Source of the DNA: Xanthocytophaga agilis
GTDB taxonomy: Bacteria > Bacteroidota > Bacteroidia > Cytophagales > 172606-1
Reading direction: 5' to 3'
Assembly (NCBI RefSeq): GCF_030068605.1
Contig: NZ_JASJOU010000003.1
Coordinates: forward strand, 558,001-622,000
Length of the DNA: 64,000 nucleotides
Positions 7,089 to 37,169 of the stretch are shown here, piece after piece. The translations under genes were made by a program, and so were the position numbers. Under the pieces are notes generated by a model. It saw only the letters and a program-made list of their open reading frames with translations, did not search any database and was not told the DNA's origin. Within the stretch, counting starts at the first letter, position 1, and the number at the start of each line of letters is the position of its first letter.

Positions 7089-8630
7089 TTACTTCTGGAT
7101 CTTCACTGTTTCTGTCTTACTCAATGGTGAAACTATTTTTTTAACAGTAGCATTGTCTGTTTTGTGAAGCAGGATAGCTGGAGCACTTTTCACTGTAGGA
7201 ATGGAAACATCCACAAGCTTTAAAGCTTTTACATCATCAAAGATCATAGGAATCCGGAAGTCTTCATCTTTATAACTTATTTTTACATTCTTCATAGTGA
7301 CACCCTTTGCATGTCGCACATAAAAGCCCCAGGCAGGCAGCTCTCCAAACATAGAAAACTCCGGATAATCTGAAATTTTCTCAGGAATCTGTGTCAATGC
7401 ATCTGGACTCACATAGGCAACCTCTTTACTGGCACCTCCTTCATATTTTACCTCTATATTTTCCAGTACAACATCTTCTATCGGATAATCTGGTAAACCT
7501 ACAATGGAAGATGGGTATACATTATGGGGTTCTCTCACAACAGGTCCTTCTTCGCGATATCCTTTATCAGGTTTTCCTTTGGGTACTTCCACTGTTACAT
7601 TGCCAATGTAAATATGACGTAAGTGACTTTGAACAGTATCTTTATTGCGATGTCCAATACGAATAAAAATAGCATTTCCGGTATTGGTTGCTTTGATGTT
7701 TCGAATATCTATGTTTTCCATAAAGCCACCATCCACTACTTCCAATGCAATGGCAGAACGATATGTATCATAAATTACCAGATCCCGCACGGTAATGTCT
7801 TTGAAACCACTCCAGGAAGCTGTTCCAAATTTTAAAGCACTGGCACTGGAACGAACTTTACAATTGGCGATATAAATATCCTCACAGATGTTTTTACGAT
7901 TCCGATCTTCTGACTTGAGGCAAATACCATCATCTGCAGCATTGATAAAGCTATTTGTGATTTTCACATGTCGACAATCTACCACATCAATGCCATCATT
8001 GTTCAGAAACGTAGTACTTTCTACCCTGATACTATCAATAATCAGGTTTGTACAATTTACATACTTTTGTATCCAGTCGGTACCATCCCGAAAGGTAATG
8101 CCTTTTATCTGTACACCATCACAATTCCGCCATTCCAATAGCTTCGGGCGATTATCTTCAGCTGGACGTATCTGATGCCAGGGATTTTCGGTTTGCCATT
8201 CATTATCCTCTAGTGTACCAGCTTTTAACATACGATAAATATCCTCAATCAGTTTGTCGGACTGCCCATCAATAGTTCCTTTGCCTGTAATGGATATATT
8301 TTTCTGACCATCAGCAACCAGCAAGGCGGAAGCTTTTTTAGGACCATACTCACTACGACGGGATGTTCCTAACAAAACAGCATTTTCAGCCAAATATAAT
8401 CCCACATTGGATTTCATATGTAATACTCCCGTTACAAATCGACCGGCAGGAATTAGAACTCTCCCTCCACCTGCTGCACTTGCCTCATCAATTGCTTTCT
8501 GAATAGCTTGTGTATTATGAGTTTCGCCATCTGGCTTTGCACCATAGGTAGTAATAGTAAAGACTTTCTGTTGACCAATAACAGAAAAGGTACTTATCAG
8601 ACAACCAATAAAAAGAATAGCATTTTTCAT
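7089..8630 (-). CDS. Glycoside hydrolase family 28-type beta-helix protein (distal copy)
   Basis: A 513-residue protein with a signal peptide (cleavage near FSVIGQQ). It opens with the pectate-lyase-3 style segment TITTYGAKPDGETHNTQAI and continues as a right-handed beta-helix. The GH28 acid motifs are visible: NNDGIDVVD and NAADDGICLKS. The usual GHG histidine motif is replaced by FGTASWSG and the RIK motif by RIGHRN, so it is a divergent member whose substrate cannot be assumed to be polygalacturonan. It is a clear paralogue of the protein encoded at 9710-11227, sharing for example FSMFGELPAWGFYVRHA. It is the last gene of the operon and is followed by a terminator. Family members act on galacturonosyl or rhamnosyl bonds; in this setting an alpha-uronosyl linkage is the best guess. 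It is exported, probably to the periplasm. Confidence 0.85.
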   Translation of the reverse strand: MKNAILFIGCLISTFSVIGQQKVFTITTYGAKPDGETHNTQAIQKAIDEASAAGGGRVLIPAGRFVTGVLHMKSNVGLYLAENAVLLGTSRRSEYGPKKASALLVADGQKNISITGKGTIDGQSDKLIEDIYRMLKAGTLEDNEWQTENPWHQIRPAEDNRPKLLEWRNCDGVQIKGITFRDGTDWIQKYVNCTNLIIDSIRVESTTFLNNDGIDVVDCRHVKITNSFINAADDGICLKSEDRNRKNICEDIYIANCKVRSSASALKFGTASWSGFKDITVRDLVIYDTYRSAIALEVVDGGFMENIDIRNIKATNTGNAIFIRIGHRNKDTVQSHLRHIYIGNVTVEVPKGKPDKGYREEGPVVREPHNVYPSSIVGLPDYPIEDVVLENIEVKYEGGASKEVAYVSPDALTQIPEKISDYPEFSMFGELPAWGFYVRHAKGVTMKNVKISYKDEDFRIPMIFDDVKALKLVDVSIPTVKSAPAILLHKTDNATVKKIVSPLSKTETVKIQK

Positions 8631-8681
8631 GAACTTGAAGAGTTAAATACGGAAGCTAAATTTCTTCAGATAGCTTGATTT

Positions 8682-9629
8682 CTATTTTGTTAATTCTGTA
8701 GTATACACAATGTTCCCTTCATGGTTAATGACCTGCACATATAGCTTTTTATCCGTAACAGAGAAGGCCATAAAGCCATACTCAGACAGCGCCAACTTGC
8801 TGATAGGCAGAGTCCCGATTTCTGTCTTTTCGGATGCAGATCCTGATACAAAATAATGAGTCTTGCCTTCTGGCAATAAATGTTGCAGATCATGATCATG
8901 CCCACAGAGATAGGCGTCTACTTTGTATTTGTCCAATACGGATTTTAGAGAAGCTCTTACAGCTCGTGTGTCATAGCTTTCTCTACGTTTTTGGGTGGCA
9001 GTAAATAAGGGATGATGCCCTACCACAATCTTCCACTTGATAGTAGGAGAGTTATTAGCTAACACACCTTCCAACCAACGTTTCTGTGCTGTACTATCCT
9101 GTCCAATGGTGGCATTGCTATATTCTCCTTTATAAAACTGTGGTATCAATGGATTGGTATCAATAAAGGCAATCAATACCTGTTTAGTAGTGTCACCATG
9201 GATTGAAAAGATCTTGGAATAATAGCGGGCGGGCATCTTCCAGCGACGGCTGATTTTTGAATAGGCAACCTGCGCATCTGGATTAGACTTATAATCATGA
9301 TTTCCTAACACCGGATACCAGTCCCATTGTAGCGAAAAATCAGTATAGATATCCTCAAAGGAATATTTCCAGAGGGGATCATGCTCACTAATGACTCCAC
9401 TGGGATAAAAATTATCTCCGGTTGCTATAATGAAATCTGTTGAGAGTGTTTTGGCGGCTTTGCCCATTTGTGTGGCAACAGGTTTTTGATGATCCTCTCC
9501 ATTACGGCCCCAGTCGCCCATAACCAGAAAGTTAAGTGCATCTGGATGTTTGGTTAATTCTTTTTTCTGTGCCTGTACAAGTTGAAAGCTCAGGAGGGAG
9601 ATGAATAAGGCACTAATTACTTTTTTCAT
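8682..9629 (-). CDS. Purple acid phosphatase-like metallophosphoesterase (ACP5-type)
   Basis: A 315-residue secreted protein (signal peptide ending near FQLVQAQ). The five metallophosphoesterase motifs are in order: GDWG, GDNFYP, GNHDY, GHHPLF and GHDHDLQHL. Length and the GDWG/GDNFYPSG pair are typical of the small purple acid (tartrate-resistant) phosphatases. It would remove phosphate from a monoester outside the cytoplasm. It sits between the two GH28 genes, 80 bases after one and 51 bases before the other, on the same strand and so probably in the same transcript. In a glycan locus it suggests that the substrate carries phosphate, for example inositol phosphate. The substrate is not shown by the sequence. 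Confidence 0.88.
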   Translation of the reverse strand: MKKVISALFISLLSFQLVQAQKKELTKHPDALNFLVMGDWGRNGEDHQKPVATQMGKAAKTLSTDFIIATGDNFYPSGVISEHDPLWKYSFEDIYTDFSLQWDWYPVLGNHDYKSNPDAQVAYSKISRRWKMPARYYSKIFSIHGDTTKQVLIAFIDTNPLIPQFYKGEYSNATIGQDSTAQKRWLEGVLANNSPTIKWKIVVGHHPLFTATQKRRESYDTRAVRASLKSVLDKYKVDAYLCGHDHDLQHLLPEGKTHYFVSGSASEKTEIGTLPISKLALSEYGFMAFSVTDKKLYVQVINHEGNIVYTTELTK

Positions 9630-9709
9630 AAATTGGATGGCTTGTTATATATAAATCAGAAAAAACATAATAATAAGCCCAGAAGATGGACTACTACAAA
9701 AACAGAGAA

Positions 9710-11227
9710 CTATTGAATCTTTAGAGATTCGGCCTCTGAAAAGGAAGATTTCACTTCTGTTAGTACTGGTTTGGCCACTTTATTCAAAATCCAAACCGGT
9801 TTTGTTGTAGCATTGCCAGACTCTACTCCTGAAAGTTTTAATCCTTTAATATCATCAAAGACACAAGCAGGCCGAAAATCTTCTTTTACCAATGATAGTT
9901 TTACATTTGAAAATTCAATCCCTTCAGCATGTCGCACATAAAAGCCCCAGGCAGGCAGTTCTCCAAACATAGAGAACTCCGGATAATTAGGTATTTGCTC
10001 CGGAACCAGATGAAGTGAATCTGTTGAAACAAACGCTTTGGTTTTAGAGGCTCCTCCTCCATACACAATCTCAATATTTTCCAGTTGTACATTTTGAACA
10101 GGATGTCCGGGTAATCCGGTAATGGAAGAGGGGATTAGATTATGTGGAGGCACCTTCGGAAGAGGTCCTTCTACAGGGTAGCCTGCATCAGGTTTACTGG
10201 CAGGAATTTCAGCCCTTACATCCTGAATAAGTACATCCCGTAAGATACCATATTGATTTCCTGTATTACGATGCCCCAAACGAATAAAAATTGCATTGCC
10301 TGTGTGAGTAGCCCGAACATGTTTAATCCTGACCTTTTCAATGATTGCGCCATCTACTGTCTCCAAGGCAATAGCCGAACGATATGTATCATATACTGTC
10401 AGATTCTCAACTACAATATTCCGAAAAGCGCCCATTGAACCGGTTCCAATCTTAAAAGCATTAGCACTAGACCGAATCGTACAGTTCTTGATTGTTATAT
10501 TTTCACATACTCCTTCTTTGTCTTCTGATTTCAAACAAATACCATCATCGGCTGAATTAATAAAGCAATCTTTAATGGTAACATTCTTTGTATCGACAAT
10601 ATCAATACCATCATTGTTCCAGTAAGCAACACTTTCCACCCGAATATGATCAATAGTTACATCTTCACAATTCTGGTAGTTCTGTACCCATCCAGAGGCG
10701 TCTTTAAAAGTAATACCTGAAACACGGATATTTTTTGATTTCTCTAACCCAAGTATCATCGGACGATTAGCTTCTGTAGGACGCTTGATTCTCCACTCCG
10801 GATCCTGAATTAGATTCTTATTCAGTAATTCGTATAGATTTACCACCAATTCTCTTCCCTGCCCATCTATGGTTCCTTGGCCAGTGATTGACACATTGGT
10901 AAGATTAAAGCCTGTTAGTAAGGCCAGTTTTCCTTCTCCTTTGGTATAATCCAACCGATTGGTACTTCCTAACAAAACTGCCCCTTCTTCCAGATGGAGT
11001 TCTACATTAGAACGCAGATACAGTCCTCCTGTCAGGAAATACCCAGCAGGAATGATCACCTTCCCTCCTTTTTTAGAGATATCATCAATAGCTTTCTGGA
11101 TTGCAGAAGTATTATTGCTCCTACCATCCGGTTTAGCTCCATAGGAAGTAATAGTAATTACTGTTTGCTGACAAATACCTATGATACTATGTATAATGCA
11201 AATACAAAGCAGAATTGCTTTTTTCAT
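9710..11227 (-). CDS. Glycoside hydrolase family 28-type beta-helix protein (proximal copy)
   Basis: A 505-residue secreted beta-helix protein with a signal peptide (MKKAILLCICIIHSIIGICQ). It carries SYGAKPDGRSNNTSAIQKA near the N-terminus, NNDGIDIVD, NSADDGICLKS, the segment KIGTGSMG in place of the canonical GHG motif, and IRLGHRN. It matches the distal copy over its whole length, including the C-terminal FSMFGELPAWGFYVRHA segment, so the two arose by duplication with the phosphatase gene between them. It starts 39 bases after the GH89 stop. Because the GHG histidine is absent in both copies, the pair may have shifted specificity together. Likely an exo-acting alpha-uronidase-like or rhamnosidase-like enzyme; the exact bond is unknown. 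Confidence 0.85.
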   Translation of the reverse strand: MKKAILLCICIIHSIIGICQQTVITITSYGAKPDGRSNNTSAIQKAIDDISKKGGKVIIPAGYFLTGGLYLRSNVELHLEEGAVLLGSTNRLDYTKGEGKLALLTGFNLTNVSITGQGTIDGQGRELVVNLYELLNKNLIQDPEWRIKRPTEANRPMILGLEKSKNIRVSGITFKDASGWVQNYQNCEDVTIDHIRVESVAYWNNDGIDIVDTKNVTIKDCFINSADDGICLKSEDKEGVCENITIKNCTIRSSANAFKIGTGSMGAFRNIVVENLTVYDTYRSAIALETVDGAIIEKVRIKHVRATHTGNAIFIRLGHRNTGNQYGILRDVLIQDVRAEIPASKPDAGYPVEGPLPKVPPHNLIPSSITGLPGHPVQNVQLENIEIVYGGGASKTKAFVSTDSLHLVPEQIPNYPEFSMFGELPAWGFYVRHAEGIEFSNVKLSLVKEDFRPACVFDDIKGLKLSGVESGNATTKPVWILNKVAKPVLTEVKSSFSEAESLKIQ

Positions 11228-11266
11228 GGCTGCTCAATTAAAATTCAACTACAATCTAACTCTATT

Positions 11267-13474
11267 TTAAATTGCATAAGCAGCCTGTACCTTCTTCCAA
11301 TACTTCTTATATAGTTGTCGGGCTACATCCACTGACACACCCACAGGTTTATCCGCAAAGGCTTTTTGTTCAGTAACCCACTCCCATTCCCATTTTTTAA
11401 TTTCCTTTTCAAAAGCAGCTAAGTCTATTTCCTTTCCGGAAACTAACGCTTCATTCACTCGCTGGAAAAACTGTTGCCATCTGGGTTTATAAAAATCACT
11501 TAGCAACCCATTCCACTGACGATTGGAATATTCATGTAATGGACTGTTTTCATCTCCCCATAGAGTTACCAGATCACGGGCATTCTGTTCATACAAAGCT
11601 TTTTCTTCTGCTGTGGTGCCACAACTACGCGCTTCAGCAATCCATTTTCCCAACAGAAAATCTTTTCGTGTTCCCAGCAACTTATTCATATCATCAATCA
11701 ACTCAATAAACTCTTTGCTATATTTCTGAAAATCCGCCTGATTCTTTTGTTTGTAAGCCTGTACCCATTTTTTCTGTAGAGGCAGGGCATAATTAGCCAG
11801 CACCTGTCGCGTGACATCCACCAGATCATACTGGAATCCATCACTGGACTTGCATGTGTTGATCGCCTGAACCAGATGTTGCCAGGCTGGTAAAAGTTCA
11901 ACAGGAGGATAATTCAGTTTAGTGCGTGTCCATACTGTGGTTGAATCAAAGGTAGGTCGTCCTGTTACAATTGATTCAGCTCCATCCCGAATGGCTTTGC
12001 CATTGTAGACAGTTGTTTTCAAAATCTGCCAGGCTGCTAAAGTATGTTCATTGGTATTACCATAACGATTTCGGATATAATCAGGCAACCATTTATCCAG
12101 ATTAATAGGTTGATCTCTCCAGGTGTTGGCCATCATCAGTTCATATAAAACAGGATTCTGCTCAATAGCTTCCATAGTGAGTCCAATTCCTTTCAAATTG
12201 CCACTTTTCGGATCATGCAATGCCTCGGCGGGACCTTTTGCAGCCCCTTCTATCCGTCCAAACAGATTGACATTACCCCCAAAATTATTTAGCATATTCC
12301 AGATCCAGGGTTTGCCATAAAATGCCTCAGTACTTTTCCATACAGGTTCTATTTCTGTGGCCAGATCCAGCACAATCATATGGTCATTGGGGACGGCATC
12401 CAGTAAAGCTTTGATTTGTGGAGCTTTCCAGAATTTGCGATCACTGTAGAATAACCATCCCTGCATAACCCATACAGCTTGTGGATCTGCTTGTCGCATT
12501 CCTTCATATACACGCGCACTCAGCTTAGACAAAAATTCAGGCTCATCAGAGGGTGGCTCGTTTTCGTTGAAGGTATCTGCGGAATACAAGTGATCTGTAC
12601 CAAATAAAGTAGTTTGTTTCTGTAGAAACTTCTTACCAATCTCAGCAAACATAGGATCTTCCGAGTCCAATATATAGGTATCTGCAAACCCATTGGTCCA
12701 GTTGGTAGCTTTCAGTTTAGCATGAGGAAAGCGATGACGAAAGGCAGCAGGAACGTGCCCTGTAAATGCAGGCAGTACAGGTTTCATTCCTAATTCACGT
12801 TCACGAGCAACAATCTTTTGCTGCAATTCTTTGTGGCTTTGCATCCAGCTTACAGGAAGTGGACCACCCCATGCATCCAGGTTTCCCATCCAGAACCAGG
12901 AGAAATATGACGGGCCACTAAAGAATGCTTGTAAATCCTGATCCGTAAATCCCATTTCCTTATATACTTCATACCATGTATATTCTTCTCCGGTAATTGC
13001 CAGAGGCATATTGATCCCATGCAATGCCATCCAGTCTATCTCTTTTTGCCAGCGTTCCCAATCCCACCAGCTCATGCTGTAGTTGAAGGTACAGTAGTTC
13101 AGATAATAACGGTAATGATAGGGTGTATTCTTGTGAACCTTTTCAGGTACAACAGGCAGAGAAGCAGGTAGTTTTAAATTTGTTCCATTCCATGTAATCT
13201 GGCAATGGGCATATTCTGTCAGATAGTAATATAAAGCAGATCCTATTGCCACTCCGGTACTTCCTCTAAGAATAATTTTACCATTCTTACTTTCTATTTC
13301 AAATGCATCTTTTCCTTTTTCAGGAGCTAATGCTTCCACCTGAAAGTACTGAGATTCATTGGGTAATATTCTTTTTACAAAAGCTTCAGAGGCTTGTACA
13401 TTGAGCTGAGCCATCACATAGGATGTAAAAAACAGATGGATAGCTCCTACTAGTAGAATTCGCTTAAAATACAT
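11267..13474 (-). CDS. Alpha-N-acetylglucosaminidase, GH89 (NAGLU family)
   Basis: The frame is open from a TTG-type start at 13615, but that overlaps the upstream gene. The ATG at 13474 begins a normal signal peptide (MYFKRILLVGAIHLFFTSYVMA), so I chose it, giving 735 residues. Homology to human NAGLU runs along the whole length: an N-terminal alpha/beta domain, then the (beta/alpha)8 catalytic domain with YSADTFNENEPPSDEP (acid/base Glu about residue 304, matching NAGLU E316), VWVMQGWLF, and GLTMEAIEQNPVLYELM (nucleophile Glu about 435, matching E446), followed by the all-helical C-terminal domain. It releases terminal alpha-linked GlcNAc by retention. It lies directly downstream of the HGSNAT-like acetyltransferase gene, which recreates the two-enzyme pair that removes terminal GlcN from heparan in lysosomes. 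Periplasmic or surface location is expected. Confidence 0.94.
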   Translation of the reverse strand: MYFKRILLVGAIHLFFTSYVMAQLNVQASEAFVKRILPNESQYFQVEALAPEKGKDAFEIESKNGKIILRGSTGVAIGSALYYYLTEYAHCQITWNGTNLKLPASLPVVPEKVHKNTPYHYRYYLNYCTFNYSMSWWDWERWQKEIDWMALHGINMPLAITGEEYTWYEVYKEMGFTDQDLQAFFSGPSYFSWFWMGNLDAWGGPLPVSWMQSHKELQQKIVARERELGMKPVLPAFTGHVPAAFRHRFPHAKLKATNWTNGFADTYILDSEDPMFAEIGKKFLQKQTTLFGTDHLYSADTFNENEPPSDEPEFLSKLSARVYEGMRQADPQAVWVMQGWLFYSDRKFWKAPQIKALLDAVPNDHMIVLDLATEIEPVWKSTEAFYGKPWIWNMLNNFGGNVNLFGRIEGAAKGPAEALHDPKSGNLKGIGLTMEAIEQNPVLYELMMANTWRDQPINLDKWLPDYIRNRYGNTNEHTLAAWQILKTTVYNGKAIRDGAESIVTGRPTFDSTTVWTRTKLNYPPVELLPAWQHLVQAINTCKSSDGFQYDLVDVTRQVLANYALPLQKKWVQAYKQKNQADFQKYSKEFIELIDDMNKLLGTRKDFLLGKWIAEARSCGTTAEEKALYEQNARDLVTLWGDENSPLHEYSNRQWNGLLSDFYKPRWQQFFQRVNEALVSGKEIDLAAFEKEIKKWEWEWVTEQKAFADKPVGVSVDVARQLYKKYWKKVQAAYAI

Positions 13475-13522
13475 GTATACGCAAAAATTTATGTAGAATA
13501 TTCGTTGTTCAATCTGATACTT

Positions 13523-13553
13523 AGTGGTTCTTTTTATACTTTTAAGAACCACT
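13523..13553 (-). other. Stem-loop over the stop codon of the acetyltransferase gene
   Basis: AGTGGTTCTT (13523-13532) and AAGAACCACT (13544-13553) form a perfect 10-bp stem with an 11-base loop. The stem includes the last codons and the loop the stop codon of the HGSNAT-like gene. No U run follows on the minus strand, so it is more likely an RNA stability or processing element than a strong terminator. It lies 49 bases before the GH89 start. Confidence 0.55.
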
Positions 13554-14676
13554 TTTGCTGATATAAAAAGTATAGGAACCCTAGTTGTACAGCGACAATT
13601 CCAGCGGCCAGCCATACTGGCTGCCAGGCTGCCTCTGCAAACTTAATCAACCCTCCAAAAAGAAAAACAGTAGTATGTTCAAAATCAATAACTCCATGTG
13701 AGGCCATATATATAGTAATCGAATTCATTCCTATCCATACCAGAGGCATAGACCATTTCTGAAATCCGGCAACATCAATAATCAGATAAAAAGTAGAAAG
13801 AAACAGCAGGCTCCAGCCACAGGTAAGCAACACAAATGAACTGGTCCACATATTTTTATTAATGGGAAAATCCAAATGCCAGATCCAGGCAATACCAATA
13901 AGTAAAAGCCCTACTGGAATCATAAGAAATCCTTTTTTGAGGGGTGTCCATCCAATAGACGACCACCGTAGAAATTGGCCTGTAAAAATTCCCATCAGGG
14001 CATTAGCAATAGCAGGAATGGTAGATAGAAATCCTTCAGGGTCGTAAACTTTCCGATGCAGTTTACCTGGCAACAATATACGATCTATATATGCCTCCAT
14101 ATTTCCTTCGGGAGTAAGAACACCTGCACCAAATCCTGGAACAGGAATAAACTTCATAACAACCCAATAACCAATCAATAATCCTGCAAACCACAGCAGT
14201 TGCCCTCTGAGATTACAGTAAAGAAAAATAAGTCCGGCAAAAAAACACGATAAGGCGATACGTCCAAGTACACTGGCAAACCGGGTGTTGTCATATCCTT
14301 GCCACTTCAGCAATCCGTTGACAACCATTCCCAAAATGATCAGGATGAGTGTACGCTTTAGAAGATGCCACAAAATCTTTTGTCGAATAGCTGATTTGTT
14401 CTCAGCAGAACTTCCTTCCAGCTGTTTTCCCATGGAATAAGGCATAGAAACCCCAGCTATAAAAATAAAAAGAGGAAATATCAGATCATAAAACGTAAAT
14501 CCATTCCAATCTGAATGATGTAGTTGGTCGGACATCCAGTCAATCAGTGAATTGTCAGATGCACTGGCCCAGGAATGAATTAACCCTTCTCCACTAATAA
14601 TCCAGAACATATCAAATCCTCTGAGAGCATCCAGAGACTGTAATCGTTTTAGGTGTGGTTTCTGATTTGTATGCAT
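13534..14676 (-). CDS. HGSNAT/NagX-like membrane acetyltransferase (DUF5009)
   Basis: A 380-residue polytopic inner-membrane protein with about ten hydrophobic segments. It begins with RLQSLDALRGFDMFWI, the hallmark of the heparan-alpha-glucosaminide N-acetyltransferase family. The segment HHSDWNGFTFYDLIFPLFIF aligns with the human HGSNAT active-site region, and His54 falls on the catalytic histidine (human H269). The enzyme uses cytosolic acetyl-CoA to acetylate terminal glucosamine across the membrane, which GH89 then removes as GlcNAc; the GH89 gene is next on the same strand. An alternative name for bacterial relatives is NagX, proposed to act in GlcNAc uptake in chitin regulons. The adjacent GH89 and preserved histidine favour the acetyltransferase reading. 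No signal peptide is present; the first membrane span follows a short cytoplasmic N-terminus. Confidence 0.87.
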   Translation of the reverse strand: MHTNQKPHLKRLQSLDALRGFDMFWIISGEGLIHSWASASDNSLIDWMSDQLHHSDWNGFTFYDLIFPLFIFIAGVSMPYSMGKQLEGSSAENKSAIRQKILWHLLKRTLILIILGMVVNGLLKWQGYDNTRFASVLGRIALSCFFAGLIFLYCNLRGQLLWFAGLLIGYWVVMKFIPVPGFGAGVLTPEGNMEAYIDRILLPGKLHRKVYDPEGFLSTIPAIANALMGIFTGQFLRWSSIGWTPLKKGFLMIPVGLLLIGIAWIWHLDFPINKNMWTSSFVLLTCGWSLLFLSTFYLIIDVAGFQKWSMPLVWIGMNSITIYMASHGVIDFEHTTVFLFGGLIKFAEAAWQPVWLAAGIVAVQLGFLYFLYQQKWFLKV

Positions 14677-14701
14677 ATTGGCAAGAAGATCGCCTATCTA
14701 T

Positions 14702-14741
14702 AAAAAACTCTCTGACAAATAAGACATTCTGCCAGAGAGTT
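14702..14741 (-). terminator. Rho-independent terminator after myo-inositol oxygenase
   Basis: AACTCTCTG (14706-14714) pairs with CAGAGAGTT (14733-14741) in a perfect 9-bp stem. A six-U run follows on the minus strand (14702-14707). It falls between the oxygenase stop and the acetyltransferase start, so the glycosidase genes either depend on read-through or have their own promoter. Confidence 0.7.
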
Positions 14742-14765
14742 GTACCAGGTTGCTTTAATTAACTT

Positions 14766-15644
14766 TTAAAATTTTAATGTAGATGGCAAGTACTTAGCTA
14801 CCAAATCTTCATAGTAAGGTCTGAGTGCTTTGGCATCAGGAGGTACAGGAACTTTTGAGTACAGATCGTAGGGATTGAATTTATTTACCCATTCAAACAT
14901 TTTATGGTCATGCTCTGTCATCAGATGGGAATAGGCATTTTCGCGATGTTGTGAGTAGAATGAGTGATAACGAATCATATACAAGGCAGGTTCTGGCAAA
15001 TAGTCTTTCATCATCTGATACAGGTATTCATCGTGCCCCCATGACATACGCACATTATCTAATCCACAGTTAGGTTCGTAAATGCCATATTTTGTATTAT
15101 AGCGTTCATCTGTAGAATCAGGATTTGCAGCAAAAAACTCAGGATAAACGATCTTGTCTGAATGCTGGCATCCAACAGGGAAAGTATCTCCTACTACCGC
15201 CCACTGAGGTTCTCCAAACAGACACAACACTTTACCCATATCATGCATAAATCCAGTCAATACAAACCAGTCCGGATGGCCATCAGCCCGAATGGCTTCT
15301 GAAGTTTGGAGCAAGTGCTGTAACTGATCCAGGCTGGTATCCGGGTCAGAGTCATCTACCAGTGTATTCAGAAAATCTACCGCTTCCCATAATGACATTT
15401 CCCGCTTATCAAATTTCAGAAAATCAGCTCTCTTCTCCTTTACAAAATCATAGGTTTGATAGGTATGGTTAAGTCGGTAAAACTCACGCACAGTATCTAC
15501 CCGTTCAGAATCAACATAATTTCGATACTCTTCTTTAGTCTTTACAGACTCATCCGGATCAGGATAACGCTTTAACAAATCGTCTTCCCATTCTTCCATA
15601 CTGGATAATGGAGATACTTCCTTTTCTGTGAATTTCTGGTTCAT
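14766..15644 (-). CDS. miox: Myo-inositol oxygenase
   Basis: A 292-residue cytoplasmic protein matching the eukaryotic myo-inositol oxygenase over its full length. All six di-iron ligands are present: His123 (ADGHPDW), His134 and Asp135 (FMHDMGK), His204 (SWGHDEY), His227 (RYHSFYSQHR) and Asp260 (NPYDLYSK). The family signature LFGEPQWAVVGDTFPVGC is intact. The enzyme cleaves the ring of myo-inositol with O2 to give D-glucuronate. No other inositol catabolism gene (iolG or iolE type) is in the window, so inositol would feed the hexuronate pathway. It is the first gene after susD in the locus, separated from it by a stem-loop and followed by a terminator. Its presence in a SusCD locus means inositol is probably a component of the imported substrate. 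Confidence 0.95.
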   Translation of the reverse strand: MNQKFTEKEVSPLSSMEEWEDDLLKRYPDPDESVKTKEEYRNYVDSERVDTVREFYRLNHTYQTYDFVKEKRADFLKFDKREMSLWEAVDFLNTLVDDSDPDTSLDQLQHLLQTSEAIRADGHPDWFVLTGFMHDMGKVLCLFGEPQWAVVGDTFPVGCQHSDKIVYPEFFAANPDSTDERYNTKYGIYEPNCGLDNVRMSWGHDEYLYQMMKDYLPEPALYMIRYHSFYSQHRENAYSHLMTEHDHKMFEWVNKFNPYDLYSKVPVPPDAKALRPYYEDLVAKYLPSTLKF

Positions 15645-15743
15645 AGGGTTATAATAATTGAGAGTTAAGGGATTAGTACAAACTTTTAAGAATACTTACA
15701 AGTTAACTACTCAGAAACCAAATAATCAACCCGGTATCAGATT

Positions 15744-15794
15744 TATAAGCTCTTCCTGGCAAACATTTTACTGATTTATCAGGAAGAGCTTATA
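15744..15794 (-). terminator. 15-bp stem-loop after susD
   Basis: TATAAGCTCTTCCTG (15744-15758) and CAGGAAGAGCTTATA (15780-15794) form a perfect 15-bp stem with a 21-base loop, 5 bases after the SusD stop. There is no U run on the minus strand. It may work as a partial terminator or a 3'-end stabiliser that keeps the susCD message more abundant than the downstream enzyme message. Confidence 0.65.
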
Positions 15795-15799
15795 ATATA

Positions 15800-17416
15800 T
15801 TAATAACCTGGATTTTGAACTAATTTTGGATTTAAAACAATTGCAGAAACTGGAATAGGGAAAATCCGCCGATAAGTATCCGCATTAGTCTTGAATCCCC
15901 AAGAATCTTCGTATTTCCCAAAGCGAATCATATCATTGCGATGCCAAGCTTCATAGGCAAATTCACGACTTCTTTCTTCATACAAATCATCCAACGTTAC
16001 AGCAGTCCAAGGGCTGGAAGTAGTTCTGTTTGCACGTACCTGATTTACTAATGAAAGAGCAGTATGTCCCGATGTTGGCGCACCTCCACGAAGTATAGCT
16101 TCTGCTTTCATTAAAAGAATATCAGAGTAACGAAACACAGGCATATCATTATTTTGATTCCGGTTAGCAGATGAAGCATCTGGATAGAATTTAATATTTC
16201 GATAACCCATATTCCAGGCAATCTCATCATTTCCCAAATCAAAGTTTACAACACTGCGTCTTAATACAATTTCAGGACTCAATTCTACCTGATACGTATA
16301 ACTGGCATCTCCATCAGTACCTGCATATGTTTCATCATATCCTTTTTTGGTTGTCGTAACTGTTAGTGGAGTACCATCAGTATTATATTGCTTTCCTGTT
16401 AGCCATTGACCATTACGTACATCATTTTCATCATTGAAGTGAGCGTAAAATTCAGGCAAAGTACTCTCTGGTGCACTTGGAGTAAACGGTAATTTGAATT
16501 TTGCTCTCATTGAACGTGGTACATCATAACGGGCACGATACATATAGCCATTTGTATTTGCAAGAGGTGCAGCTGTAGGATCATATGGTATAGCAAAAAT
16601 GAATTCTTTCATCTGAGGACCATTCGTTGGATAAAACATTTGCAGATACGAACTCATAGACTCTATGCCATACTTACCAGAGCTGATGATTTTATCACAA
16701 GCTGCAATACATTCGTCATTACGTTTTGTTCCGGTATAAACTTCTGCATTCAGGTACATCTTTGCCAACAGCGCATACGCCATCCATTTATTACATCTTC
16801 CGTACATCAATGTACCAGTTTCTTCACTCAGAAAAGGTAATGCAGCATTTACTTCTGATTCAATAAAGTTGAATACTTCTGTTCGGGAAGAATTAGCACG
16901 AGGTTCAAAGTCCCCATACGCAGTATCAATAGGAACATTTCCATATAAGTCTACCATCATAAAATAGGCAAGTGCTCTTACCATTTTGAGTTCCGCAAGT
17001 TTCGATGACTTGGAAGAAGACGTAGCTGGAATATTTTCCCCTAGAATGGCTAGTGCCTGATTAGTAGTCCCAATCACTCTGGATAACCAACTCCAGCTAC
17101 TGGATGGCCAGCCTGTATCAGTTGTCCAGGTATGATAGTGCATTCTAAGATATCCCTGGTTATCATACCAGTTACCGCCTCTGGCAGGTAATATTGCCTC
17201 GTCGGTACTTAACGTCTGAGTGAACCAGTAATCTAGTGCATAATTACCTCTTAAAGCTGCATATGCAGGCCCTGAAGCTTGAATAAATTGAATTGAATCC
17301 TGAGGGAATACATCTGGGGTTAACTCTGATGTAACAGGCACATCCAGCATATGACATGCTGTCATGAAGTAGAATAACAGAATTAAAAAAGATATATAGA
17401 GAGAACTTTTTTTCAT
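15800..17416 (-). CDS. SusD/RagB-family outer-membrane glycan-binding lipoprotein
   Basis: A 538-residue protein with a lipoprotein signal peptide; Cys21 in YFMTACHM is the lipidated residue. The helical TPR-rich body and the C-terminal SusD segment are recognisable: MPVFRYSDILLMKAEAILRG, the arrangement VNQVRANR, LYEERSREFAYEAWHRNDMIRFGKY, and a typical end FPIPVSAIVLNPKLVQNPGY. Family members cap the SusC porin and bind the incoming oligosaccharide. The gene follows susC by 31 bases. The binding specificity cannot be read from sequence. The neighbouring enzymes suggest a ligand with hexosamine, uronate and inositol. Confidence 0.95.
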   Translation of the reverse strand: MKKSSLYISFLILLFYFMTACHMLDVPVTSELTPDVFPQDSIQFIQASGPAYAALRGNYALDYWFTQTLSTDEAILPARGGNWYDNQGYLRMHYHTWTTDTGWPSSSWSWLSRVIGTTNQALAILGENIPATSSSKSSKLAELKMVRALAYFMMVDLYGNVPIDTAYGDFEPRANSSRTEVFNFIESEVNAALPFLSEETGTLMYGRCNKWMAYALLAKMYLNAEVYTGTKRNDECIAACDKIISSGKYGIESMSSYLQMFYPTNGPQMKEFIFAIPYDPTAAPLANTNGYMYRARYDVPRSMRAKFKLPFTPSAPESTLPEFYAHFNDENDVRNGQWLTGKQYNTDGTPLTVTTTKKGYDETYAGTDGDASYTYQVELSPEIVLRRSVVNFDLGNDEIAWNMGYRNIKFYPDASSANRNQNNDMPVFRYSDILLMKAEAILRGGAPTSGHTALSLVNQVRANRTTSSPWTAVTLDDLYEERSREFAYEAWHRNDMIRFGKYEDSWGFKTNADTYRRIFPIPVSAIVLNPKLVQNPGY

Positions 17417-17447
17417 AATGGTTTCTTTAAATAAAATCCAGAATAGA

Positions 17448-20400
17448 TTAGAATGTCACATTAGCTCCTAACAAAAATGTCCGGGTTTTTGGATAGAAGT
17501 TATTTGAATCTACACCCGGCGCAATACCACCTTGATTAATCTCCGGATCAATACCTTTGTAATTTGTGATGACAAAAGCATTGTTAACTGAAGTATAAAT
17601 ACGTAAGGACTTTACATATTGCCCCAGTTTTTTGAAATTGTAGCCCAGAGTTGCATTATCTAATCGCAAATAGCTTCCATCTTCAATAAAGCGGGTTGAA
17701 TATCTGTACGCATTCACATCATTTGCTGACTCATTTGCCGCTTCTTTCAGAATATTGGTAAATTCAGCAGTGTTTGGTCTGAATAAATCAGCTCGGGTCA
17801 CGTTAAAAATCTTATTACCAAATGCACCTCTGAAGAAAACATTCAGATCAAAGTTCTTATAACTAAAAGAGTTAGTCCATCCCAATAATAGTTTAGGTTG
17901 TGGACTACCTGCATAATGATAATCCTTACCAATAACAGGAGTAGTTGTCAGATTACCGCTTGCATCCACATACTGAGAAACACCCTGATCATTTTTTCCA
18001 GCATACTGGAGTGTAAAGAACTGTCCCAATGGCTTCCCTGATTTCAAAATCTGTAATGTACTTCCTGTTTGTCCAGCTCCGTCGGGCTGTGACAGACGAA
18101 CAGAGTCACCACCTGAGAAAAGAGGATTTGTAAGACTGGTAATTTTGTTGGTATTGTGGGCAAGATTCACACTTGTATTCCAGGTAAAGCCACTACCTGT
18201 TTTAACAGGAGTTGCATTCAAACTTACTTCAATACCTTTATTATTCATACTGCCTCCATTAGCAACAATACTACCAACTGGAACTTTAATAGGATCTACG
18301 GCATAAGAATAAATCATACCAGTAGTATTTTTATCATACCACTCAACGGTACCGCTCAGTTTTCCCTGTAGCAATGTAAAATCTAACCCAACGTTTGTTG
18401 TTGCAGTTTTCTCCCATTTCAGGTCAGGGTTAGCCGCCTGTGTTGGGCCATATGCTGCCACCTGTGAGCCATTGTAATAAAAAGTACCCAGACTACCTGA
18501 AATAAATTGAGCGGTGTATGGATTAAATCCGGAAGAGTTACCTGTTACTCCATAGCTGGCACGAAGTTTCAGATCATTAACAAAAGTTTGGCCCTTCATA
18601 AAATCTTCTTCAGATATTCTCCATGCACCACCAACTGCCGGAAAATATCCCCAGCGGTTATTTTCACCAAATACCGAAGATCCATCTCTGCGTATAGATC
18701 CTTGAAACAGGTATTTATCTTTATAGCTATAGTTTAAACGGGCAAAATCAGATATCCAACGATAATGCTGATAGATTCCATCTGATCCAAAGTTGATACG
18801 ATAAGAAGCTATAGCATAGGGGTTGCTAAGAGCAAAGTTACTATACCCAATGTTATCTACAGGAAAGTTTGTTGCAGTTGCCTGAAATCCATCACCCAAC
18901 TGGTTATCCTGCCAGGAATAACCTAACACGAAGTTTACAGAATGAACACCAAATTCCTTATCCCATGTTATATAACTTTCTAACACTTTGCGTATATCCT
19001 GATACGTATTGCGCAATGCTAACCCATTTGTACCAAAATTAAGCAGAGTTTTGGTTGAGGGAGGATCAGGGTTATTATATAAGTTAATGCCATTATATTT
19101 TGAGTAATAACTATCGTAAAACTCTCCATGCAAAGAAGTTGTATTCTGATAGGAAACGTTTAAGTTATAGGAAAGACCAAATGGAAGTTTTACCAGAGCG
19201 GTGAATGCACCTACCAGATTGTTATACTTTGTATCATCTTTTGCGTGATTAATCATCGCTACAGGATTGACATAGCTGGTATAAGTGAAATTCTCAAAAT
19301 AACTTCCATCTGCATTCTTTATAGGAGATACAGGTAGGTACGTAACCGCCTGCTGTAATACACTGTTTCGTAAAGGAGTGTTATTAGATATTGTATTTGA
19401 ATTAGTAACATTCAGACCAAATTTTACTCGATCATTCAATGCAGACTGCTCTACAGCTAATCTTGCAATAACACGTTCCAACTTACTACCTAACAGGATA
19501 CCTTCTCTATGTACATAGTTTAAACTTGCATTGTATGTACTATGCTCACTACCTCCACTAAATGAAAGGTTATGATTAGTTGAAAATGCTGACTTCCGCT
19601 GAATAGCTTCCTGCCAGTTGGTATTGGCACCTTTATCATCATTAGCAGAAAGAGAGCGACCATTGGCCTCCAGAAATGATCTTAGCTCATTTCCAGTCAT
19701 CATATCCAGTTTTCTGGACACTTTTTCAATACCGGCATAGCCATTATATGAAATCTGCATTTGACCTTTTTTTCCTCTTTTGGTAGTCACCATGATAACC
19801 CCATTAGCAGCCCGGTTTCCGTAAATAGCGGTAGCAGCACCATCTTTCAATACGTCAATAGATGCGATATCATCAGGAGCAATAATAGAGATATCAGCAC
19901 CCACAACACCATCAATCACATACAAAGGGGATTGAGAACTATTCAGTGTGGAGGCACCACGCAAAACAACGGCAGCGGTTCTGTTTGGGTCACCACTGGC
20001 TGTGATATTTAAACCGGGGACCTTCCCTTGTAGTAATTGGCCTACATCTGTAATAGCTCCTCTGTTAAGTTCTTCAGGCTTAACATTGCTGATGGCACTG
20101 GTCAGGTTCTTACGTGATTGAGTTCCGTATCCTACTACTACAACTTCACCTAATGTCTGGATATCTGGTACCAGAGCTACATCAATAGTAGTTCTGTTAC
20201 TAACAGCTATTTTCTCCTGTACATACCCTACAAAGGTGAAAATCAATTGAGCGTTGGCTCCAGCCTTCAACTTGTACTCGCCATTCACATCTGTAACAGT
20301 TCCGGTAGTAGTCCCTTCTACAAGAATGGATACTCCAGGCAAAGTCTCACCATTACTGGCTGATGTAACCTTCCCTGATACAGTTACTTCAGACTGTCCA

Positions 20401-20477
20401 AACAATTGCGAATGCATTGTAAGAGACAGAAACAGAAGCAGAAAGAGAATGGATTTGAAATGTAGATGTTTTTTCAT
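17448..20477 (-). CDS. SusC/RagA-family TonB-dependent outer-membrane transporter
   Basis: A 1009-residue outer-membrane protein. It has a signal peptide (MKKHLHFKSILFLLLFLSLT), a CarboxypepD_reg-like domain at about 30-115 (VSGKVTSASNGETLPGVSI), the TonB box and plug with EVVVVGYGTQSRKNLTSAIS and SPLYVIDGVVGADI, and a beta-barrel ending in LLGANVTF with a terminal aromatic Phe. It would import the oligosaccharide made or bound at the surface, powered by TonB/ExbBD, with the SusD partner encoded 31 bases downstream. The plug has the SusC signature IDVLKDGAATAIYGNRAANG. It is slightly longer than classic SusC porins of about 1000 residues but complete. A LacI-type operator lies about 90 bases upstream of its start. 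Confidence 0.96.
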   Translation of the reverse strand: MKKHLHFKSILFLLLFLSLTMHSQLFGQSEVTVSGKVTSASNGETLPGVSILVEGTTTGTVTDVNGEYKLKAGANAQLIFTFVGYVQEKIAVSNRTTIDVALVPDIQTLGEVVVVGYGTQSRKNLTSAISNVKPEELNRGAITDVGQLLQGKVPGLNITASGDPNRTAAVVLRGASTLNSSQSPLYVIDGVVGADISIIAPDDIASIDVLKDGAATAIYGNRAANGVIMVTTKRGKKGQMQISYNGYAGIEKVSRKLDMMTGNELRSFLEANGRSLSANDDKGANTNWQEAIQRKSAFSTNHNLSFSGGSEHSTYNASLNYVHREGILLGSKLERVIARLAVEQSALNDRVKFGLNVTNSNTISNNTPLRNSVLQQAVTYLPVSPIKNADGSYFENFTYTSYVNPVAMINHAKDDTKYNNLVGAFTALVKLPFGLSYNLNVSYQNTTSLHGEFYDSYYSKYNGINLYNNPDPPSTKTLLNFGTNGLALRNTYQDIRKVLESYITWDKEFGVHSVNFVLGYSWQDNQLGDGFQATATNFPVDNIGYSNFALSNPYAIASYRINFGSDGIYQHYRWISDFARLNYSYKDKYLFQGSIRRDGSSVFGENNRWGYFPAVGGAWRISEEDFMKGQTFVNDLKLRASYGVTGNSSGFNPYTAQFISGSLGTFYYNGSQVAAYGPTQAANPDLKWEKTATTNVGLDFTLLQGKLSGTVEWYDKNTTGMIYSYAVDPIKVPVGSIVANGGSMNNKGIEVSLNATPVKTGSGFTWNTSVNLAHNTNKITSLTNPLFSGGDSVRLSQPDGAGQTGSTLQILKSGKPLGQFFTLQYAGKNDQGVSQYVDASGNLTTTPVIGKDYHYAGSPQPKLLLGWTNSFSYKNFDLNVFFRGAFGNKIFNVTRADLFRPNTAEFTNILKEAANESANDVNAYRYSTRFIEDGSYLRLDNATLGYNFKKLGQYVKSLRIYTSVNNAFVITNYKGIDPEINQGGIAPGVDSNNFYPKTRTFLLGANVTF

Positions 20478-20567
20478 TGGCAGTTAAAATGGGTTTAATT
20501 CAAATCAACCACCGAATATCAATATAGTACTTTTTAAATAAAAGTTTTAGAATAACTAATTTCTATG

Positions 20568-20577
20568 CAAACGTTTG
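20568..20577. promoter_or_regulatory. Candidate LacI-family operator upstream of susC
   Basis: CAAACGTTTG is a perfect 10-bp palindrome with the central CG that LacI/GalR regulators prefer. It lies in the 133-base gap between the lacI-type gene and susC, 91 bases before the susC ATG. It is the natural binding site for the regulator encoded next to it. Confidence 0.6.
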
Positions 20578-20610
20578 AAATCGTTTTTGTCCAACTCCGA
20601 AAAGAAATTA

Positions 20611-21654
20611 TCATGATCTCCGGGACGAATCCCGCACAATTAATTCCGAATCCAGGACACAGTTTTGAGGAGAGACAGAGGAAGAACCTGATGTCAGGGA
20701 CTCGATAAACAGACGGGCCGCTTCTGTTCCAATTTGCTTGCTCTGACGTTTCACAGAAGTGAGTGGTGGCTGAAAATATTCTGCTATAGGACTATTATCA
20801 AATCCAACTAAAGCAATATCTGTTGGCACATTCAACTTATATTCCTTAATGACTTTTAATGCACCAAAACAAACCTGATCATTTACACCAAATATGCCAT
20901 CTGGCCTATCTTTCAGATTCAAAAGGTATTGTGTAGGCTTTAAGCCACTCTCTATATTGAAATTAGTCTCTGTTATCAATGCCTTATCTACAGGCAAGTG
21001 ATGATCATTCAGACAATCAATATATCCTTTATAACGCTGTTCTGCTACTGTAAGCCCCTTCGGCCCTCGTAAGTGTGCAATTCGCTTGCAACCTACTTCA
21101 ATCAAATGTTGAGTAGCTCTGTAAGCCCCCTGATAATCATTTATTGTAACTCCAAAAGCTGAAAAATGATCATATTCACGATCTATAAATACCAGTGGAA
21201 TGTTCCGTTTTAGTACCTGTTCCAAATGGGAATGATCTTTGGAATCGTAGGTTTCCTGAGACACAGACATAAAAATGGCATCTACCCGATTGGACAGAAG
21301 TCGATCTACATACTCCTTTTCCAGTATCTGACTCTCATTGGTGATACATATATTTACCAGATATCCCAATGGCTGCAACACAGACTGCAGTCCATTTACC
21401 ATAGCAGCTTCATGAAAATGGCTGATATTGGGCAGAATTACTCCTATTATTTTGGTTGATTTATTCAGAAGGCTCAACGAAACGGAATTTTTTTGATATC
21501 CCATTCGTCGGGCATATTCCTGTATAGTATTTCTTGTTTCAATATTGATTAAAGGATGATTGTTTAATGCTCTCGATACAGTAGAAGGAGAACACTTAAA
21601 CTTTTGAGCAATATCTTTAATCGTAATTATTTTTGGCGTTGAATGCAATGACAT
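20611..21654 (-). CDS. LacI/GalR-family transcriptional regulator of the SusCD locus
   Basis: A regulator of 347 residues when started at the ATG at 21654. A TTG start at 21696 would add 14 residues that look like untranslated leader, so I rejected it. Residues about 8-60 form the LacI helix-turn-helix: ITIKDIAQKFKCSPSTVSRALNNHP and the hinge region near YARRMGYQ. The rest is a periplasmic-binding-protein-like effector domain (IIGVILPNISHF, HLIEVGCKRIAHLRGP, PDGIFGVNDQVCFGALK, DIALVGFDNSPIAEYFQPPL). It lies upstream of susC on the same strand with a perfect palindrome between them, so it probably controls the locus in response to a breakdown sugar. The ligand is unknown; glucuronate, inositol or GlcNAc are candidates. 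Confidence 0.92.
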   Translation of the reverse strand: MSLHSTPKIITIKDIAQKFKCSPSTVSRALNNHPLINIETRNTIQEYARRMGYQKNSVSLSLLNKSTKIIGVILPNISHFHEAAMVNGLQSVLQPLGYLVNICITNESQILEKEYVDRLLSNRVDAIFMSVSQETYDSKDHSHLEQVLKRNIPLVFIDREYDHFSAFGVTINDYQGAYRATQHLIEVGCKRIAHLRGPKGLTVAEQRYKGYIDCLNDHHLPVDKALITETNFNIESGLKPTQYLLNLKDRPDGIFGVNDQVCFGALKVIKEYKLNVPTDIALVGFDNSPIAEYFQPPLTSVKRQSKQIGTEAARLFIESLTSGSSSVSPQNCVLDSELIVRDSSRRS

Positions 21655-36808: not shown

Positions 36809-37169
36809 ATGAGAAGGTTGCTTTGGTGTGAAACACATGAAGAACGAGAAAGCACAAAGAAAAATCTTTTACCTAATAATAAAAACAAGATAGCACAGGA
36901 TGCACTTTTGTGTAAACTTCACTGTATGTTTCGGCAAAAGAAATAAAACCCTGTTAACTGTATTATGTTACGTTCCATATAGACTGGACCATCTCTTTCC
37001 AATAAGTTGTATAGATGACAGCTTTATGAAGCCAAAGCTATCATCTATACAACTAAAAAGAGAAGAACATATACCCATTTCATTACCAAATTCATTCAAA
37101 ATTTTTCTATGGTTACTAGAATATTACTCAAATAGAACTATTATTGGCTTAATTATTCTTACTATACTC

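Follow-up and report, generated by a model that had tools for sequence, protein, structure and literature searches.

What does a gene cluster feed on that combines a SusC/SusD importer with an inositol oxygenase, a membrane acetyltransferase and an alpha-N-acetylglucosaminidase? The question is raised by nine genes at positions 7089-21654 of a 64,000-nucleotide stretch of the Xanthocytophaga agilis genome (contig NZ_JASJOU010000003.1, positions 558,001 to 622,000; referred to below as the window). Judging from gene content and protein sequences, we consider it probable that the locus serves the inositol glycan head of plant glycosyl inositol phosphorylceramides (GIPCs), that is, GlcN(Ac)-alpha1,4-GlcA-alpha1,2-myo-inositol with or without phosphate (GlcN(Ac), glucosamine or N-acetylglucosamine; GlcA, glucuronic acid). 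An earlier, sequence-only reading had proposed that the locus could dismantle an inositol-containing glycan, possibly GIPC headgroups; the fit of the gene content, the recurrence of the locus and variants with GH92 that match mannose (Man)-type heads support this, with the soluble inositol (phosphate) glycan as the better candidate for the substrate.

Excerpts of the GIPC literature describe these lipids as predominant among the glycosphingolipids of plant membranes (PMC12201980), with heads that typically consist of GlcA-alpha1,2-myo-inositol and a second sugar at O-4 of the GlcA (PMC12498067); the O-4 position can be taken by Man, glucose, GlcNAc or GlcN, and arabinose (Ara), galactose (Gal), Man and fucose (Fuc) are found on longer heads (PMC12201980). 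Heads of the glucose, Gal and Man types have been made by chemical synthesis (PMC12498067). In tomato, GlcN and GlcNAc forms both occur, and free inositol phosphate glycans build up during Botrytis attack (parts of PMC11496612). The presence of both GlcN and GlcNAc on GIPCs would explain why the locus holds an acetyltransferase of the NagX type, and the abstract of PMC8225759 reports a bacterial GH89 that cleaves GlcNAc-alpha1,4-GlcA. GIPCs are predominant in plant membranes, yet we found no bacterial route for dismantling their heads in the literature searched, which covers few subscription papers and preprints: no paper in it names both polysaccharide utilization loci (PULs) and GIPCs, and none of those listed in further searches describes a locus for the use of GIPCs. 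The earlier reading likewise knew of no PUL for this substrate. A word search of a paper on terrestrial flavobacteria (PMC3784431) found no mention of inositol, sphingolipid, GH89 or GH92.

Catalytic residues and predicted pathway

All nine genes are present as open reading frames on the minus strand, and their family matches agree with the genes named in the sequence-only reading; as in a PUL, SusC adjoins SusD, and the GH89, two GH28 and LacI genes run in the same direction. In myo-inositol oxygenase (MIOX), H110, H134, D135, H204, H227 and D260, which we take to be the six iron ligands, align with structure 2huo and are invariant in 12 of 12 aligned MIOX proteins, so that the full set of ligands claimed earlier is present; this is the sole MIOX match in the 9.77 Mb genome of the window. 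The GH89 protein, likewise the only one of its family in that genome, matches its Pfam model in three domains (490.6, 299.0 and 88.3 bits) and human NAGLU (4xwh) with an E value of 3.2e-169, and both Glu motifs (ADTFNE and VLDLATE), whose Glu residues we presume to be catalytic, align with the human enzyme, as had been predicted. The listed GH89 reading frame overlaps the acetyltransferase gene; translation probably begins at Met48 (13474), and we read the stretch that follows as resembling a signal peptide. The closest solved relatives of the phosphatase are purple or tartrate-resistant acid phosphatases (TRAP; 1qhw, E value 1.3e-36), and alignment with a solved TRAP-type relative shows that it keeps GDW, GDNFY, GNHD, GHHP and GHDH, presumably the metal-ligand motifs of these enzymes, which upholds its assignment as a purple-acid-type phosphatase (PAP). 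The acetyltransferase has no Pfam match at E values up to 0.001 and scores 348 bits against the NCBIfam NagX model, below the curated cut-off of 480, and is therefore named only NagX/HGSNAT-like here (NagX, for short); it matches the human HGSNAT structure 8vkj with an E value of 2.4e-16, and the catalytic His attributed to it earlier is found as His54, which aligns with HGSNAT His297 (the catalytic His in passages of PMC9007349) and is invariant in 10 of 10 aligned proteins.

From these activities we infer an order and a location for each step. Plant or fungal phospholipases would first cut the head from the ceramide; the Pfam matches of the locus include neither a ceramidase nor a phospholipase. 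Other organisms therefore probably cut the lipid, no gene of the locus would act on ceramide, and the food is likely to be the released inositol (phosphate) glycan. SusCD would import the soluble head, the phosphatase would take off the phosphate, NagX would acetylate unacetylated GlcN at the periplasmic face from cytoplasmic acetyl-CoA, and GH89 would remove the GlcNAc. A GH28-type enzyme of the clade termed A below would then hydrolyse GlcA-alpha1,2-inositol, and inositol would enter the cytoplasm, where MIOX would oxidise it to D-glucuronate, both halves thus feeding one hexuronate pathway. LacI, governed by a presumed ligand, would repress the operon through an operator before SusC. Catabolism of glucuronate is plausible because the genome of the window contains two UxuA matches and one UxaC match; UxuA directly adjoins MIOX in genome G401, and UxuA-like pieces lie about 5 kb off in G460. 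An SSS-type symporter, likely to be an inositol importer, lies near MIOX in 18 of the 45 MIOX-bearing stretches from the order (L018, L020-L025, L028-L030, L032, L033, L039, L041, L043, L044, L051 and L055).

GH28-type enzymes and the P584 family

The predicted cleavage of the uronic acid would depend on the two GH28-type proteins named earlier, both of which exceed the Pfam cut-off and keep the Asp motifs of the family, and which are 52% identical to each other (E value 3.5e-30 for a locus GH28 against 5olp). We aligned 33 GH28 proteins and built a tree; labels for two clades, A (containing both proteins of the window) and B, were set by BLAST similarity before the tree, and their monophyly is partly by construction. 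All members of clade A (13 of 13) and clade B (10 of 10) keep NNDGID and ADDG, which we take to be the catalytic Asp motifs (three Asp are retained in the clade A enzyme of the window), and lack the His (GHG/AHG) and RxK motifs that bind the uronate polymer in polygalacturonases. A second comparison is independent of the labelling: five genomes hold 18 GH28 genes, of which the nine inside these loci all fall in A or B and the nine others do not; seven of the others keep both motifs, L199 keeps them in part and L194 has neither. The genome of the window has three GH28 genes, two of them in the locus, and in G401 the locus GH28 is the only one. In L045, a protein resembling GH28 that lies 5 kb from MIOX belongs to neither clade. 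Loss of RxK would suit neutral inositol as a leaving group, and the GH28s of these loci may be unrecognised alpha-glucuronidases.

The same enzymes could instead mark a pectin or rhamnogalacturonan locus in which they do the main work, since members of GH28 are mostly pectinases and the best NCBIfam match of both proteins is the rhamnogalacturonidase BT4146 (238 and 246 bits, cut-off 500). They share with BT4146 and the exo-galacturonidases the beta-helix family and the Asp motifs; they differ from them in scoring far under the BT4146 cut-off, in lacking the His and RxK motifs and in forming separate clades beside MIOX. The contrast between locus GH28s and the other GH28s of the same genomes, the lack of any other GH28 in G401, and the presence of MIOX, GH89 and NagX, which do not fit pectin, make this reading very unlikely.

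Loci with a SusD related to that of the window (described below) often carry, beside SusCD, a family of about 590 residues, P584 (41 of 79 loci; for example, L034:7871-9625, L100:11649-13481 and L119:12060-13853). P584 has no Pfam match at E values up to 0.001, and nothing among PDB sequences fell below an E value of 0.2; against Pfam at E values up to 10, the best match was DUF771 (5 of 26 members, 0.0022), and weak matches to alginate lyase (three), PL8 (three) and GH88 (one), among others, were near chance. P584 is possibly an alternative uronate-cleaving enzyme.

Variant loci, operator and rival substrates

We examined recurrence in an order sample of 291 genomes and a class sample of 395. 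In the order, 54 genomes have MIOX and seven have GH89 over the cut-off, with both in three; in the class, GH89 occurs in 16 genomes, MIOX in 36 (37 over the cut-off with a 25-bit match in G294, which we excluded) and both in nine, where chance would give about 1.5 (Fisher p 1.2e-6). No more than 30 kb separates the two genes in seven of these nine (G000, G353, G368, G388, G401, G460 and G622), which represent four genera in three families and are not seven independent events; in G397 and G561 they are far apart. A lack of co-occurrence in other genomes, which would have counted against the earlier reading, was not what we saw: the combination of MIOX, GH89, NagX and SusCD is found again in other families, with GH92 either replacing NagX and GH89 or accompanying them.

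For a finer comparison we tabulated 19 MIOX loci, chosen because MIOX accompanies these families, with absences valid for the fetched stretches only. G368, G622 and G460 contain MIOX, SusC, SusD, PAP, NagX, GH89, GH92, GH28, LacI and an SSS symporter, and G401 has the order SusC-SusD-GH89-NagX-GH28-MIOX-UxuA. Large versions (G388 and G353) add GH92, GH2 and GH51, with GH95 too in G388, fitting the Gal, Ara and Fuc of larger GIPC heads. Paraflavisolibacter caeni (L108) has the row P584, PAP, SSS, MIOX, SusC, SusD, PAP, NagX, GH89, GH28, GH92 and a further GH28 match, and Longitalea luteola (L129) has a small Man version (SSS/LacI/MIOX-SusC-SusD-GH92-GH28). NagX and GH89 occur together in nine of the 19 and never separately; seven loci have GH92 without GH89 (one at a contig end), three have GH89 without GH92 (two from the same genus), six have both and three neither. 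In 18 of the 19 there is P584 or a GH28 that belongs to clade A or B (in G006 a shortened GH28 only), and the exception is truncated at a contig end. Taken together, the loci resemble a single pathway whose caps can be exchanged, and the alternation suits GlcN(Ac)-GlcA-inositol and Man-GlcA-inositol heads better than glycosylphosphatidylinositol (GPI), heparan, pectin or phytate; weighed against this table, the latter four readings were all ranked below the GIPC head.

Scavenging of phytate or inositol phosphates, with PAP dephosphorylating, MIOX oxidising and the glycosidases as unrelated additions, would account for PAP in eight of the 19 loci, including L119 (Cnuella), a stretch without GH28, GH89 or GH92; GH89 or GH92, however, is present in 16 of the 19, and we regard this as the least probable reading of all. 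A 610-residue metallophosphoesterase (PP610; L063:3398-5230), whose sole PDB match is weak (LMO2642, E value 7.6e-7), occurs in 21 of the 79 SusD-related loci and may replace PAP in Flavobacterium-type versions.

A search of named genomes with an alignment of the SusD of the window and its relatives gave 264 matches; we kept the top 80, which lie in 79 loci. Within 10 kb of SusD these loci contain GH89 (44 loci), GH92 (41), P584 (41), GH28 (13; clade-A type in 12 and clade-B type in two, L108 having both), NagX (12) and MIOX (8); in Flavobacterium, NagX and MIOX can sit farther from SusD, as in G388. In a tree of 42 GH89 proteins, those linked to MIOX do not form one clade, and two lineages about 36% identical serve MIOX loci. 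Stretches L056, L057, L090 and L091 have GH89 near another NagX type (30-32% identical to that of the window) and no MIOX; NagX plus GH89 may be a general module for glycans with unacetylated alpha-GlcN. The SusC-SusD-P584 run of L116 is of Bacteroidota type and lies on a contig of a metagenome-assembled genome labelled Williamsia, an actinobacterium, and is likely misbinned or mislabelled.

The palindrome TGCAAACGTTTG(C/A)A, which we take to be of the general LacI-family type, lies 88 bp before SusC and is the probable LacI operator. A search of 137 loci (2.75 Mb) that allowed one mismatch gave 17 sites. Of these, 11, spread over 10 loci, are no more than 300 bp upstream of SusC or MIOX; another is in G006, which has lost SusCD, 375 bp before MIOX; the remaining five are elsewhere. 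MIOX or SusC is preceded by a site in 8 of 8 loci (duplicates excluded) whose LacI is 47-62% identical to that of the window; in one of these the site has two mismatches. Where the LacI is more distant, no site with one mismatch or fewer occurs. Allowing two mismatches gave 36 sites, compared with 9 in one mononucleotide shuffle. The palindrome is common to loci with MIOX alone and loci with SusCD plus MIOX.

This shared palindrome bears on heparosan or heparan as the substrate, for which NagX, GH89 and a uronate enzyme would strip GlcN-GlcA chains and MIOX would be incidental. HGSNAT and NAGLU degrade heparan in animals, and a Bacteroides GH89 acts on heparosan oligosaccharides (portions of PMC8225759). 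No locus protein matches a Pfam or NCBIfam model for sulfatase, heparinase or GH88/GH105, an absence of sulfatase and heparinase that had already been counted against heparan, and neither the GH92 variants nor MIOX with its common palindrome would be explained; the probability of this reading is very small.

Several observations weigh against the GIPC head as the substrate. Among SusD-related loci, the eight with MIOX are a small minority, 10 of the 79 have no marker enzyme at all (five of these ten on stretches shorter than 13 kb), NagX occurs without GH89 in two (L120 and L146), and 34 of the 44 loci with GH89 lack NagX, so that strict coupling of NagX and GH89 is limited to the 19 selected loci; just nine of the 42 GH89 proteins in the tree belong to MIOX loci. 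PAP is missing from 11 of the 19 MIOX loci, and the locus of the window contains no inositol transporter gene. Association of MIOX with GH89 is not significant in the order (p 0.12), where no genome but G000 and its sister G006 has the two side by side. In G006 (L008:10543-18166) the locus of the window is in decay: SusC, most of SusD and one GH28 are gone and the other GH28 is shortened, with LacI, MIOX, NagX, GH89 and PAP still 94-99% identical and the palindrome persisting. The palindrome core TGCAAACGTTTG occurs once in the genome of the window (here) and a reversed control three times, so that this count alone is no enrichment and lies within chance. L194 (G561), the GH28 outside these loci that lacks both motifs, sits beside clade A; alpha-glucuronidase activity is not known to us from any GH28, and the papers listed in a search on this show none in their titles or abstract openings. 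Seven GH92 genes lie elsewhere in the genome of the window and none in the locus; given these and the limited fetched stretches, the alternation of caps is softer than the table suggests.

The last of these points touches the strongest rival, a GPI anchor or a glycosyl-inositol phosphate of fungi (Man-GlcN-inositol-phosphate) with no uronic acid, in which the GH28s would be passengers or act elsewhere. GPI contains alpha-Man, alpha-GlcN, inositol and phosphate, which GH92, NagX plus GH89, MIOX and PAP would respectively address, and GH89 and GH92 co-occur in six of the 19 MIOX loci and in 35 of the 79 SusD-related loci; mainly because of these 35, which also count against the GIPC head, GPI gains and the GIPC reading loses a little confidence. 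In GPI, however, Man caps GlcN, and both enzymes would be needed to reach the inositol unless supplied elsewhere in the genome, whereas GH92 is missing beside GH89 in three MIOX loci and GH89 beside GH92 in seven; GH28 or P584, moreover, is near-constant in the MIOX loci. We judge GPI unlikely, and the GIPC head the probable substrate. To the wider claim we give roughly even chances: that this is the first bacterial locus for plant GIPC heads, distributed over Bacteroidota as GlcN(Ac), Man and mixed versions, that the two new GH28 clades are alpha-glucuronidases on GlcA-alpha1,2-inositol, and that P584 acts on the same uronic acid, perhaps as a lyase.

Known systems and gene coordinates

The locus resembles the SusCD PULs of Bacteroidota in having the SusC/SusD pair in a single run of genes together with glycosidases and a regulator, and differs from them in its inositol oxygenase and membrane acetyltransferase and in a predicted substrate that is a lipid head group. 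In mammalian lysosomes, HGSNAT acetylates terminal alpha-GlcN of heparan across the membrane, and NAGLU (GH89) then removes the alpha-GlcNAc. The first step is described in passages of PMC9007349; the locus has the same acetyltransferase/GH89 pair, and unlike the lysosomal system is bacterial, stands beside MIOX and GH28 and lacks sulfatases. The NagX glucosamine acetyltransferase, as presented in parts of that paper (PMC9007349), shares with the locus protein the model, the His and a proposed transmembrane acetylation in the periplasm, but is reported for free glucosamine, whereas the locus protein scores below the NagX cut-off and lies beside GH89. A Botrytis GIPC phospholipase C (excerpts of PMC11496612) has GIPC as its substrate and sets free inositol phosphate glycans, which the locus could take up; it is fungal and cuts the lipid, not the glycan. 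The kind of locus, a PUL, is known; the substrate would be new, and probably the GH28 activity too. If the GIPC reading is correct, several Bacteroidota genera can eat GIPC heads, MIOX of bacteria has a function within SusCD loci, GH28 includes an alpha-glucuronidase activity new to it, and the enzymes become tools for GIPC analysis.

Table 1. Genes and probable operator of the locus (positions in the window)
Feature	Position	Strand	Evidence
LacI-family regulator	20611..21654	-	PF00356 37.8 bits, PF13377 110.2 bits
Probable LacI operator TGCAAACGTTTGAA	20566..20579		88 bp before SusC; related loci carry this palindrome in front of MIOX or SusC
SusC-type TonB-dependent importer	17448..20477	-	TIGR04056 784.9 bits
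SusD-type glycan-binding lipoprotein	15800..17416	-	PF07980 82.8 bits; aligned with 9 relatives
Myo-inositol oxygenase (MIOX)	14766..15644	-	PF05153 367.8 bits (cut-off 25); 2huo E 3.5e-87
NagX/HGSNAT-like transmembrane acetyltransferase	13534..14676	-	NF046061 348 bits (cut-off 480); HGSNAT structures E 2.4e-16
GH89 alpha-N-acetylglucosaminidase, probable start Met48	11267..13474	-	PF05089 490.6 bits; human NAGLU E 3.2e-169
GH28-type beta-helix enzyme, clade A, candidate alpha-glucuronidase	9710..11227	-	PF00295 85.2 bits (cut-off 22.9)
Purple/tartrate-resistant acid phosphatase-type enzyme (PAP)	8682..9629	-	PF00149 67.7 bits; 1qhw E 1.3e-36
Second GH28-type enzyme, clade A	7089..8630	-	PF00295 60.3 bits (cut-off 22.9)

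The LacI gene starts with ATG at 21654, the alternative TTG start of the gene caller being 21696. Elsewhere in the window, a GH43 protein with two matched stretches is encoded at 34664-36838, and a similar protein is found in G368 (L076:1623-3773), several genes past GH92. A 1500-residue histidine kinase with many PAS domains, encoded at 1050-5552, adjoins an alpha/beta hydrolase gene.

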